DNA of 64,000 nt, taken from contig NZ_BCNO01000003.1 of NCBI RefSeq assembly GCF_001514535.1, forward strand, positions 61,344-125,343, read 5' to 3'. The notes beneath the pieces were generated by a model. That model was not told the origin of the DNA and did no database searches. It saw nothing but the letters and a program-made list of their open reading frames with translations. Each line of letters opens with the position of its first letter. The first letter of the stretch is position 1. The position numbers and the translations under genes are program-made. This DNA comes from Thermodesulfovibrio aggregans (GTDB lineage Bacteria; Nitrospirota; Thermodesulfovibrionia; Thermodesulfovibrionales; Thermodesulfovibrionaceae). Positions 8,702 to 13,152 of this stretch are shown here, one piece after another.

Positions 8702-10405
8702 ATGGATATACTTGAATTAACTCTCATACTCTCCCAAAGGCTTAGTATTATAGCAACAGTAGCTTTTATCCTTTCAAGAATGCCTGCTCTGGGAAGAGTT
8801 CTTTCAAGAAAACCTTCAACTAAAGATAAATTAATTCTTACGATTGTATGTGGTGGTCTTGGGATACTTGGTACTTTCGGAGCAGTTGAGATTCACGGAG
8901 CACTTGCTAACTCAAGAGTTGTCGGAGTAATGGTTGGAGGTCTTCTTGGTGGACCCTTAGTAGGAGCTGGAGCAGGACTTATTGCAGGTGTTCACAGATA
9001 CTTTGTTGGTGGATTTACAGCTTTTTCATGTGGACTTTCAGCAGTTGTTGAAGGTTTTCTTGGTGGAGTTGTTTGCAGATACTGGAAAAAAGGATTAATT
9101 CCATGGCATGTGGCATGGTTAGCAGGTTTTGCTGGAGAGATAATTCAGATGCTTATTATTCTTACCTTTGCAAAGCCTTTTTCAGAAGCGGTAGAGCTTG
9201 TCAAAATTATCGCAATTCCAATGATTACTGTTAATTCCATGGGTGTTGCAATATTTATGCTTATAATAAAGTCTGCAGTAGAGCATCAGGAAAGAGTGGC
9301 TGCCATGCAGGCAAAGGCTACATTAAACATTACAAATCTTATTCTTCCTCATCTAAGGCAGGGGCTTAATGAAAACTCAGCACACAAAATTGCAAAAATT
9401 ATACTTGATACTCTTGGTGTTGCAGCTGTAGCAATTACAGACAGAAAAAAAATTCTTGCTCATGTTGGAATTGGGAGTGATCACCATCTTTGTGGGGCAC
9501 CTTTGCTTACAAAGGCAACACTGAATGCAATTAAAACAGGGGAAATCCAGATTGCCAATAAAAGAGAGGAAATTGGTTGTAGCAATCCCAAATGCAGATT
9601 AAGCTCTGCTGTAATTGTGCCTCTGAAAAGAAGAAAGGAGGTCATAGGCACTCTTAAACTTTATCATGAAAGGGAAAACAGCATTACTTCTGTTAACCTT
9701 GAGGTTGCCAGAGGTCTTGCCCACATATTTTCAACGCAACTTGAGATAGTTGAGCTTGACACGCTTGCAAGACTTAAAACAGAGGCAGAATTAAAATCAC
9801 TTCAGGCACAGATTCATCCCCATTTTATATTCAATGCCCTGAATACGATAATCTCTCTTATAAGAATTGAACCTGCAAAAGCAAGAGATTTACTCCTTAA
9901 TTTGGCAACATTTTTAAGATACAGCTTGAAAAAGGAAAAAGAAATACCATTAAGAGAAGAGCTTGCCTATGTGGAAGCTTATCTTTCCATTGAGCAGGCT
10001 CGCTACAGAGATAAGCTCACTGTTAATTACTACATAGAGCCAACAGTGGATCTTGATATATCTGTGCCCCCATTTACAATTCAGCCACTGGTGGAAAATG
10101 CTGTAAAACACGGATTAAAGCCAAAAATTGAAGGTGGTGAAATTTTAATAAAAATTCTTGACAAAGATGATAGTATCATAATTTCAGTTGAAGACAACGG
10201 TGTGGGAATAAGTAATTCTTTTCAGAGATTATCTGAAAAAGGCTCTGGACTGGGCTTATACCTTGTAAATGAAAGATTGAAAAGATTTTATGGAGAAGAA
10301 AGCACTCTTAACATACAAAGTTTTCCGGGCATCGGCACAGAGGTTACCTTTAAAATCCCTAAAAAATATGCTTTAAAAGATGTTGTTTTCAGCTATAGTA
10401 GTTGA
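8702..10405 (+). CDS. LytS/BtsS-type sensor histidine kinase
   Basis: Membrane sensor kinase of 567 residues. Residues 1-195 form the 5-6 span LytS-type sensor domain (GGLLGGPLVGAGAGLIAGVHRY). A GAF-like domain follows at about 215-350 with a Cys-rich patch (CGAP, GCSNPKC) that could bind a ligand or metal. The His_kinase core QIHPHFIFNALN (H372/H374) and an HATPase domain (VENAVKHG, DNGVGIS, GSGLGLYLVNERL) complete it. The response-regulator gene overlaps its 3' end by 26 bases. Pairs of this type in E. coli (BtsS/BtsR, YpdA/YpdB) sense pyruvate and induce CstA-family transporters. A cstA gene follows here, so pyruvate sensing is a reasonable inference. Confidence 0.9.
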   Translation: MDILELTLILSQRLSIIATVAFILSRMPALGRVLSRKPSTKDKLILTIVCGGLGILGTFGAVEIHGALANSRVVGVMVGGLLGGPLVGAGAGLIAGVHRYFVGGFTAFSCGLSAVVEGFLGGVVCRYWKKGLIPWHVAWLAGFAGEIIQMLIILTFAKPFSEAVELVKIIAIPMITVNSMGVAIFMLIIKSAVEHQERVAAMQAKATLNITNLILPHLRQGLNENSAHKIAKIILDTLGVAAVAITDRKKILAHVGIGSDHHLCGAPLLTKATLNAIKTGEIQIANKREEIGCSNPKCRLSSAVIVPLKRRKEVIGTLKLYHERENSITSVNLEVARGLAHIFSTQLEIVELDTLARLKTEAELKSLQAQIHPHFIFNALNTIISLIRIEPAKARDLLLNLATFLRYSLKKEKEIPLREELAYVEAYLSIEQARYRDKLTVNYYIEPTVDLDISVPPFTIQPLVENAVKHGLKPKIEGGEILIKILDKDDSIIISVEDNGVGISNSFQRLSEKGSGLGLYLVNERLKRFYGEESTLNIQSFPGIGTEVTFKIPKKYALKDVVFSYSS

Positions 10406-11153
10406 TGACGAACCCTATGCCAGGGAGGAATTGCTTTACATTCTTTCCCATTTTGATTCCTGCAGGGTAATAGGGCAGGCTGGTAATGCAAAGGATTGTA
10501 TATTTCTGTATTCAAAATTCAGACCTGATGTAGTCTTTCTTGATATTGAAATGCCTGATATGTCTGGAATTGAGGTGGCAAGACAGCTTGCAAAGTTTGA
10601 CAATCCCCCACTTATTGTTTTTGCAACCGCTTATGATGACTATGCAATTGAAGCCTTTGAGCTCGGAGCAGTTGATTACATTCTTAAACCCTTTGAAGAG
10701 AAAAGAATTGCTAAAACAATTATGCGAATAGAAAATCTCAAAAGAAATCAGGCTGAATGGAATGAAGCTGTTGGAAGACTTTCTCAGTTTCTTGAAAAGA
10801 AAAAGATTTTTAAAAAACTTCCTGTCCGGCAAAAAGCAGGTGTTATCAGTTTTGTTCCATTTATGGATATCTTATACTGCGAAGCAAGTGAAGGAGGAGT
10901 GAAAGTTATTACAGTAAAAGATGAATACTATTTTGATGGTACGCTTACAGAGCTTGAGACAAGACTTAAAGAAGAAGGTTTCATGAGGGTTCATAAAAGT
11001 TACATTGTAAATTTAAAAAGAATAGAAGCAGTGCTGCCATGGTTTAAAGGAACATACTGGATCGTGATTGAAGGTAAAAAAAATCAAATACCTGTGAGCA
11101 AATCAATTGTTAAAGAACTTAAAGAAGTTCTCGGGATAAAGTGTAGCAGTTAA
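10380..11153 (+). CDS. LytTR-family response regulator
   Basis: 257 residues: an N-terminal receiver with acidic pocket DDE, phospho-acceptor Asp55 (FLDIEMPDMSG), the T/K pair ATAYDDYAIEAF and LKPFEEKR, then a C-terminal LytTR DNA-binding domain from about residue 150 (YCEASEGGVKVIT, FMRVHKSYIVNLKRIEAVLPW). LytTR proteins bind short direct repeats spaced about two helical turns. Exactly such repeats lie right after this gene, ahead of cstA. It is the cognate partner of the overlapping LytS-type kinase. Confidence 0.93.
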   Translation: MLFSAIVVDDEPYAREELLYILSHFDSCRVIGQAGNAKDCIFLYSKFRPDVVFLDIEMPDMSGIEVARQLAKFDNPPLIVFATAYDDYAIEAFELGAVDYILKPFEEKRIAKTIMRIENLKRNQAEWNEAVGRLSQFLEKKKIFKKLPVRQKAGVISFVPFMDILYCEASEGGVKVITVKDEYYFDGTLTELETRLKEEGFMRVHKSYIVNLKRIEAVLPWFKGTYWIVIEGKKNQIPVSKSIVKELKEVLGIKCSS

Positions 11154-11204
11154 TTTCCATTCAATGCCCTCAGTTTCCACTCACATATAAAATTTTTCCA
11201 TTCA
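11154..11204 (+). promoter_or_regulatory. Three direct repeats, candidate LytTR operator of cstA
   Basis: TTTCCATTCA (11154-11163), TTTCCACTCA (11174-11183) and TTTCCATTCA (11195-11204), spaced 20 and 21 bp start to start, on one face of the helix. The inner CCAYTCA resembles the direct-repeat half-site described for E. coli YehT/BtsR (from memory: ACC-G/A-CT-C/T-A with about 13 bp between). The last repeat ends 11 bases before the -35 of the cstA promoter, a normal activator position. Confidence 0.65.
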
Positions 11205-11215
11205 TAGAGTTTTTA

Positions 11216-11244
11216 TTGTTCAAAGCTTCAATTCCTTATAGAAT
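11216..11244 (+). promoter_or_regulatory. cstA promoter
   Basis: TTGTTC (11216-11221), 17 bases, TAGAAT (11239-11244). The -35 is imperfect, consistent with activator dependence. A strong AAAAAGGAGG ribosome-binding site lies ahead of the ATG at 11280. Confidence 0.6.
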
Positions 11245-11279: not shown

Positions 11280-13103
11280 ATGCATGCACTGGTGCTTGTA
11301 ATTATTGCAGCATGCGTATTTGTGCTTGCCTACAGGTTCTACAGTGCCTTTATTGCTGCAAAAGTTCTTGCCCTTGATGCGAATCGTCAGACTCCTGCAG
11401 TGAGACTTAATGATGGAAGAGACTATGTTCCAACAAATAAGTGGCTTATTTTCGGACATCATTTTGCAGCAATAGCTGGTGCTGGACCATTAATTGGACC
11501 TGTTCTGGCAGCACAATTTGGCTATCTGCCAGGGTTTTTGTGGATCCTGATAGGAGGTGTTCTTGCAGGTGCAGTTCATGATATGGTTGTTTTGTTTGCC
11601 TCTGTAAGGCATAATGGAAAATCTCTTGCAGAAGTTGCCAAAGCTCAGATAGGACCTGTTTCTTACTGGCTTGTTCTTGTAGCTACCCTGTTTTTATTAA
11701 TAATTGTTCTTGCCGGTGCTTCCATTGCCGTTGTTAATGCACTATTTAACAGTCCATGGGGTGCTTTTACTGTTGGAGTAACAATTCCAATTGCCATTTT
11801 TATCGGAGCCTATCTTAAGTGGCTAAGACCTGGAAAAATTGTTGAAGGAAGTATTATTGGTGTAGCTTTAATTATTCTTGCTGTTGTTCTCGGTCCGGTA
11901 ATTAAAGAGTCTGCTTTGGCACCATATTTTACTCTCAGCAAAAAGGAACTTTCAATTTTAATTCCTGTTTATGGATTCTTTGCTGCAGTGCTTCCTGTAT
12001 GGTTGCTTCTTGTTCCAAGAGACTATCTAAGTTCCTACATGAAATTCGGAACGATGTTTTTGCTTGCTATTGGCGTAATTCTTGTTAATCCAATAATTCA
12101 AATGCCTGCTACCACACAGTTTATCGCTGGTGGAGGACCTGTAATACCCGGTAAAGTCTGGCCCTTTATGTTTATTACAATTGCCTGCGGTGCTATTTCA
12201 GGTTTTCATTCTCTAGTGTCATCAGGAACAACACCAAAGATGGTGGAAAATGAAAAGGACATCAGAGTTATTGGCTATGGTGCAATGCTCACAGAGTCAT
12301 TTGTTGCATTGATGGCATTAATAGCTGCAACAGTGCTTCCAACAGCAGACTACTTTGCAATAAACAGCCCTCCAGCAGTTTTTCAGAAACTTGGCATGCA
12401 GGTTCAGGACCTTCCATTTCTTTCAGCACTCGTAGGTGAGGAACTTGCCGGTCGCCCAGGTGGAGCAGTTTCACTGGCAGTTGGAATGGCTGATATTTTC
12501 TCAAGAATTGGTGGATTAAGACATTTGATGAGTTACTGGTATCACTTTGCAATTATGTTTGAGGCTTTGTTCATTCTTACACTGATTGATGCTGGAACAA
12601 GAGTTGGAAGATATCTCATGCAGGAAATAGGCGGAGCAGTTTATCCAAAACTCAGGGACTATAAGTGGTGGCCCGGTGTAATTGCAACGAGTGCAATATT
12701 CACATTCTGCTGGGGATATCTTCTCTACACAGGAACAATCTCAACAATATGGCCACTGTTTGGAGTGAATAATCAACTTCTCGGTGGAATGGCACTGGCA
12801 ATAGCAACAACATTTCTTCTTAGAATGGGTAAAGCAAAATACATCTGGGTAACAATGATTCCAATGGCATTTTTACTTGTTACCACCATTGTTGCCGGTT
12901 ATCAAAATATTGTGAATAATTACCTGCCAAAGCATAATTATCTACTTGCTGTACTTTCTGCAGTAATGATTGTAATGGTCATATTAATTGTGGCAGACTC
13001 AGTAAGGGTTTGGATAGGTATCTTAAATGGCAAAATGCCGTTAATTAAAGAGACAGAAGAAACATCCATGAAAGAAGCTCCTACAAGATATCTATCTGAA
13101 TAA
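11280..13103 (+). CDS. cstA: CstA-family carbon starvation protein / probable pyruvate transporter
   Basis: Polytopic inner-membrane protein of 607 residues with about 16-18 hydrophobic spans. It has the family stretches DGRDYVPTNKWLIFGHHFAA, AGAGPLIGPVLAAQFGYLPG, GAVHDMVVLFASVRHNGKSL and ISGFHSLVSSGTTPKM. E. coli CstA and BtsT take up pyruvate, with earlier proposals of peptides. The preceding LytS/LytTR pair and operator-like repeats support pyruvate here. It is shorter than E. coli CstA (about 700 residues). It has its own promoter and a hairpin 3' of the stop. Confidence 0.93.
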   Translation: MHALVLVIIAACVFVLAYRFYSAFIAAKVLALDANRQTPAVRLNDGRDYVPTNKWLIFGHHFAAIAGAGPLIGPVLAAQFGYLPGFLWILIGGVLAGAVHDMVVLFASVRHNGKSLAEVAKAQIGPVSYWLVLVATLFLLIIVLAGASIAVVNALFNSPWGAFTVGVTIPIAIFIGAYLKWLRPGKIVEGSIIGVALIILAVVLGPVIKESALAPYFTLSKKELSILIPVYGFFAAVLPVWLLLVPRDYLSSYMKFGTMFLLAIGVILVNPIIQMPATTQFIAGGGPVIPGKVWPFMFITIACGAISGFHSLVSSGTTPKMVENEKDIRVIGYGAMLTESFVALMALIAATVLPTADYFAINSPPAVFQKLGMQVQDLPFLSALVGEELAGRPGGAVSLAVGMADIFSRIGGLRHLMSYWYHFAIMFEALFILTLIDAGTRVGRYLMQEIGGAVYPKLRDYKWWPGVIATSAIFTFCWGYLLYTGTISTIWPLFGVNNQLLGGMALAIATTFLLRMGKAKYIWVTMIPMAFLLVTTIVAGYQNIVNNYLPKHNYLLAVLSAVMIVMVILIVADSVRVWIGILNGKMPLIKETEETSMKEAPTRYLSE

Positions 13104-13112
13104 TCTCATGGA

Positions 13113-13152
13113 GAATCGGGTGCTGATTCATTCAGCCCCGATTCCAACTTTT
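13113..13152 (+). terminator. Hairpin after cstA
   Basis: GAATCGGG/CCCGATTC 8-bp stem continued, across a one-base bulge, by GCTGA/TCAGC, with a five-base loop. It is followed by CAACTTTTG, a short T-tract, so it is a plausible but imperfect intrinsic terminator. Confidence 0.6.

Follow-up and report, generated by a model that had tools for sequence, protein, structure and literature searches.

Three direct repeats located between lytR and cstA of Thermodesulfovibrio aggregans were identified as what is very probably the operator through which the neighbouring LytS-LytTR system acts on the cstA promoter. This reading is based on the phasing of the repeats, their conservation, their exclusive association with LytSR-linked cstA genes, the geometry and related half-site of the Escherichia coli btsT operator, and the sensor residues of LytS. 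Most likely, the repeats would constitute a BtsSR-like, pyruvate-responsive activator operator. Coordinates given without prefix refer to the window, i.e. the whole stretch of 64,000 nucleotides (64 kb) that was analysed.

The three predicted operator half-sites were located on the plus strand at 11154..11163 (TTTCCATTCA), 11174..11183 (TTTCCACTCA) and 11195..11204 (TTTCCATTCA). The first starts at the base next to the lytR stop codon (11151-11153), the second follows 20 bp past the first, and the third 21 bp past the second. The motif TTTCCAYTCA matched exactly at 11154, 11174 and 11195 and nowhere else in the window. The array is composed of 10-bp repeats with spacers of 10 and 11 bp, which lie within the ranges defining a LytTR operator (direct repeats of 8-11 bp, spacers of 10-13 bp). 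The probable cstA promoter (11216..11244, plus strand), TTGTTC (11216-11221)-N17-TAGAAT (11239-11244), begins 11 bp past the third repeat; its -35 hexamer is weak, agreeing with the consensus at three of six positions, and the promoter was missed by a generic promoter scan for this reason. Motif, 20/21 bp spacing, distance to the promoter and placement directly behind a LytS/LytTR pair and before cstA had all been given in a preliminary description of this DNA, and positions and gene neighbours were confirmed. Comparison of the repeat region to the Rfam families yielded no match.

All genes of the module are encoded on the plus strand. LytS (8702..10405) is a sensor kinase with the Pfam domains 5TM-5TMR_LYT, GAF, His_kinase and HATPase in the order expected for a BtsS-type kinase, the GAF matches being weak; its phospho-accepting histidine is residue 374, in the motif HPHF. 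The lytR gene (10380..11153) overlaps lytS by 26 bp and encodes a response regulator with a receiver domain, a LytTR DNA-binding domain and the conserved aspartate (D55), as in BtsS/BtsR-type systems. The cstA gene (11280..13103, ATG at 11280) encodes a CstA-family transporter, probably a pyruvate importer, which matched PF02554 over almost its full length (residues 3-539, 734 bits, Pfam CstA 1.5e-220). The NCBIfam equivalog cut-offs were not reached by LytR for BtsR (NF008677, 178.9 bits vs 246) and LytR (NF010684, 190 vs 375), nor by CstA for E. coli CstA, a pyruvate/proton symporter (NF011590, 612.5 bits vs 1188). An inverted repeat, GAATCGG...CCGATTC, was observed just past cstA at 13109-13150 as a possible terminator; it was absent from the listing of a simple scan. 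The genome carries dsrA above the curated cut-off; the host is thus a sulfate reducer by gene content, as the preliminary description had presumed.

The significance of the array was assessed in the window and in the whole genome (2.0 Mb). Single near-matches to the repeat were found in the window at chance level (25 vs 21 expected), so the signal resides in the phased triple. Self-identity of the triple was 28/30, a value that no sequence attained among 2000 simulated by a first-order Markov model with matching composition and length (maximum 26). Genome-wide, the exact pair pattern was present solely at the lytR-cstA locus. With up to three mismatches allowed, the next best hit was a pair with one mismatch at C1:1118108; it lies inside the coding sequence of purH and was rejected as a chance occurrence. 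No such operator adjoins the second CstA paralogue (C1:1203375) or the second LytTR pair of the genome (C1:279.6k). In the latter pair (C1:278509-281790), the histidine kinase is devoid of the 5TMR_LYT sensor domain, and a gene resembling those of solute-binding proteins adjoins on the opposite strand.

Conservation was examined in 16 congeners, nine of which possess both lytR and this cstA and seven neither. Three phased half-sites were found after lytR in all nine, with a spacing of 20+21 bp in seven and 21+21 bp in two. Absence of the repeats from relatives keeping lytS-lytR-cstA had been named beforehand as grounds against an operator; the repeats were conserved in every congener with these genes. 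In an alignment of the nine regions, the invariant columns clustered in the half-sites and the promoter, and the spacers were variable. The bases TTTC of half-site 1 were nearly invariant, and TTGTTC-N17-TAGAAT was conserved among the closest congeners. Degenerate copies of site 3 were seen in G001 and G012, and of site 2 in G002 and G009.

Several peculiarities of single congeners were recorded. In G009 (L072), lytS, lytR and cstA have decayed together by deletions, a frameshift and stop codons, and the three half-sites are still readable. A MITE-like element of approximately 220 bp with the ends GGCTGTTCAAT...TTGAACAGTC separates the cstA promoter from the ribosome-binding site in G002 and G005 (L068:4401-4635 and L044:2475-2568 / L070:12-146), with operator and promoter intact. 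In G002, the region C1:1505000-1546000 is repeated perfectly at 1556203-1597203 (at least 41 kb, offset 51,203 bp), resulting in two identical lytS-lytR-cstA copies; either a tandem duplication of recent date or an artefact of the assembly would account for this.

For comparison across phyla, GTDB genomes were scanned with the LytR alignment. The 80 loci returned, most of them ordered lytS-lytR-cstA, belonged to Bacillota (Desulfofundulus, Moorella, Ammonifex, Thermoanaerobacter, Negativicutes), Gammaproteobacteria (Aeromonas, Shewanella, Photobacterium), Alphaproteobacteria (Pseudovibrio) and one Deferribacteraceae MAG; none of the loci retrieved was from Desulfobacterota. The regions upstream of cstA were scored without a motif: for every combination of two spacings between 12 and 30 bp, the highest three-way self-similarity was taken, with averaging by genus. 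Over 28 genera of Nitrospirota, Bacillota, Proteobacteria and one Deferribacterota, the spacing 20+21 ranked highest among 361 pairs (z 6.9; next 3.5; shuffle maximum 4.0), and it was first or tied first in 12 of these genera. After removal of Thermodesulfovibrio, z was 6.8. The loci are homologous and the spacing tests therefore not fully independent, a dependence that genus averaging and controls lessen and do not remove. As one control, the regions upstream of 19 related cstA genes without adjoining lytSR (18 from further genomes of the order, the remaining one being the paralogue of the own genome) gave a z of 0.7 for 20+21, ranking 74th; the CstA genes of other Nitrospirota families mostly have neither LytSR nor operator. 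As another, 73 regions upstream of lytS at the same loci gave a z of 0.05. When the 21-spaced pair was located first and offsets were scored afterwards, the extra site appeared as a single sharp peak at exactly -20, both in the combined Nitrospirota and Bacillota (z 4.1) and in the combined Proteobacteria and Deferribacterota (z 5.2).

The half-site word varies by group, approximately TTTC(C/T)(A/G)TTCA versus (A/G)CC(G/A)CT(C/T)A, with a shared core. The Bacillota loci (Desulfofundulus, Moorella, Ammonifex, Negativicutes) resemble the Thermodesulfovibrio locus in gene order and in a three-site 20/21 (or 21/21) operator; their half-sites read TTTC(C/T)(A/G)TT(C/G)A and are degenerate in several of them. 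Only degenerate triples were found in several genera (Ammonifex, Lucifera, some MAGs). No experimental description of the Bacillota LytSR-cstA loci was found in the literature. Two further arrangements were seen: btsT-like promoters of Photobacterium (L137, L139) and Veronia (L127) carry four to six phased BtsR-like half-sites instead of three, and LytSR pairs of Sporomusa and Pelosinus that are close to the pair of the window (L095, L096, L098, L099, L101, L102) have no cstA within the flank.

Among the known systems closest to the one described here is E. coli BtsS/BtsR-btsT (YehU/YehT-yjiY), which likewise combines a LytS with a 5TMR_LYT domain, a LytTR regulator and a CstA-family target. 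LytR and LytS of Thermodesulfovibrio are 35-37% identical to the E. coli proteins. The btsT gene is unlinked to btsSR, whereas cstA lies directly downstream of lytSR in Thermodesulfovibrio. The oligonucleotide used as YehT (BtsR) site of yjiY (btsT) (PMC4847170) was located ahead of btsT in the E. coli collection, reading GCCGCTCA-N12-ACCGCTTA-N13-ACCACTCA, i.e. at +0, +20 and +41. The similar repeat that the preliminary description had ascribed to BtsSR thus turned out to be a related word in three copies with the same 20/21 spacing. The E. coli half-site (A/G)CCGCTCA differs from TTTCCATTCA of Thermodesulfovibrio, and CC(A/G)(C/T)T(C/T)A is common to both. No statement of three BtsR sites was found in the literature searched, which did not extend to the original BtsR-binding paper. 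Judged by sequence, the three-site form is widespread, E. coli included, and not peculiar to the Thermodesulfovibrio locus.

Further LytTR systems were compared. B. subtilis LytST-pftAB and E. coli YpdAB-yhjX are also pyruvate systems of the LytS/LytTR type, with direct repeats at a spacing of 21 bp. They differ in the target, which is PftAB or YhjX and not CstA, in the description of two boxes, and in the half-site (GGCATTTCAT for YpdB). The LytTR proteins RcoM and CoxC of CO oxidation employ three direct 8-bp repeats with spacers of 12-13 bp, equivalent to a periodicity of 20-21 bp (PMC11347149); these are, however, one-component CO sensors with the half-site TTCNNGCA.

As LytTR sites are generally described as two repeats, just two of the three sites might be functional, the third being a relic or a weak accessory site. 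The degeneration of site 3 or site 2 in four congeners would agree with this. On the other side, the extra site at exactly -20 from the 21-spaced pair was recovered in two half-data sets, three sites are present across distant phyla, and efficient binding of CoxC requires all three repeats (PMC11347149). A two-site operator is accordingly regarded as doubtful, and the necessity of all three sites is favoured by a small degree.

The second alternative concerns the signal and leaves the operator itself in place: LytR would bind the repeats in response to another small carboxylate, the membrane state or carbon starvation, and CstA would import e.g. peptides. CstA proteins were initially characterised as peptide permeases and as proteins of carbon starvation (PMC3333781), a link of S. 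aureus LytSR with membrane potential has been described (PMC5626966), and the equivalog cut-offs for BtsR and CstA were not reached. Pyruvate is bound by E. coli BtsS via Arg72, Arg99, Cys110 and Ser113 (PMC10653868), and alignment placed R72, R99, C110 and S113 of the window LytS at identical residue numbers. In eight aligned LytS proteins, R72, R99 and C110 were invariant and S113 was frequent, so these residues mark the sensor family and support, but do not prove, pyruvate specificity. A different signal is further opposed by the pyruvate responsiveness of BtsS, YpdA and B. subtilis LytST alike, and by the pyruvate-specific fitness phenotypes of the D. vulgaris relatives. Such a signal is considered improbable, and pyruvate the likely signal of Thermodesulfovibrio LytS. 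A third alternative is that the repeats have no regulatory role and arose by chance or are left over from a repetitive element. The nearby MITE-like element of two congeners would fit this, yet it lies outside the three half-sites; the simulations, the cross-phylum conservation and the negative controls leave this a negligible prospect, and it was rejected on account of the conservation in relatives.

For the pyruvate-responsive operator, the following sequence of events is proposed. External pyruvate or a close analogue would activate LytS, and LytR would be phosphorylated on D55. LytTR domains would then sit on the same face of the DNA at all three half-sites, spaced by two helical turns. 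With a transcription start presumably about 7 bp past TAGAAT, the half-sites would be centred near -52, -73 and -93, the third being the one at about -52. Polymerase would be recruited to the promoter with its poor -35 hexamer, and the CstA-type pyruvate importer would be switched on. A poor -35 (3/6) is as expected of an activator-dependent promoter, and by analogy we infer activation rather than repression. The LytTR repressor CoxC is a counter-example, although its operator overlaps the -35 (PMC11347149).

The preliminary description had expected the module to be extended to a different phylum and metabolism. The extension to the phylum, Nitrospirota, was supported. The extension to sulfate reduction was not new: in Desulfovibrio vulgaris, a sulfate reducer of another phylum, a LytR-type regulator and a kinase (DVU0596/DVU0597) adjoin cstA (DVU0599). 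DVU0596 binds two cstA copies in DAP-chip (PMC3333781) and mutants of DVU0599 and DVU0596:0597 show pyruvate-specific fitness phenotypes (PMC10102598), so that a sulfate reducer with the module had been known before. The likeness to D. vulgaris was drawn from this published description, and the text consulted contains no operator sequence. New are the phylum and the evidence for a fixed 20/21 three-site operator as the general form for LytSR-controlled CstA transporters. On balance, we lean towards the asymmetric triple (20 then 21 bp, all direct, last site promoter-proximal) being a general and functionally required site of LytS/LytTR pyruvate systems that switch on CstA. It would have been kept across Nitrospirota, Bacillota, Alpha- and Gammaproteobacteria with drift in the half-site word, and the E. 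coli btsT operator would be one such triple and not a two-repeat box.

Concerning the origin of the module, the closest CstA (75-80%) and LytR (54-56%) outside Thermodesulfovibrio belong to Bacillota. In the CstA tree, seven Thermodesulfovibrio sequences were nested in Bacillota beside Ammonifex thiophilus (100/99), apart from 15 CstA proteins that belong to their order. The affinity of LytR to Desulfofundulus, Moorella and Ammonifex agrees with this placement. Taken together, tree and LytR affinity are most simply explained by horizontal transfer of the whole lytS-lytR-operator-cstA unit, probably from thermophilic Bacillota.

What is known of pyruvate sensing by LytS/LytTR systems comes mostly from Gammaproteobacteria, Bacillus and a single Desulfovibrio. 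With an operator that can be recognised by sequence in several phyla, the regulon could be predicted for thermophiles and other anaerobes without recourse to genetics. The triple with its fixed 20/21 spacing also raises the question of how many LytTR molecules load per promoter, and in which order.
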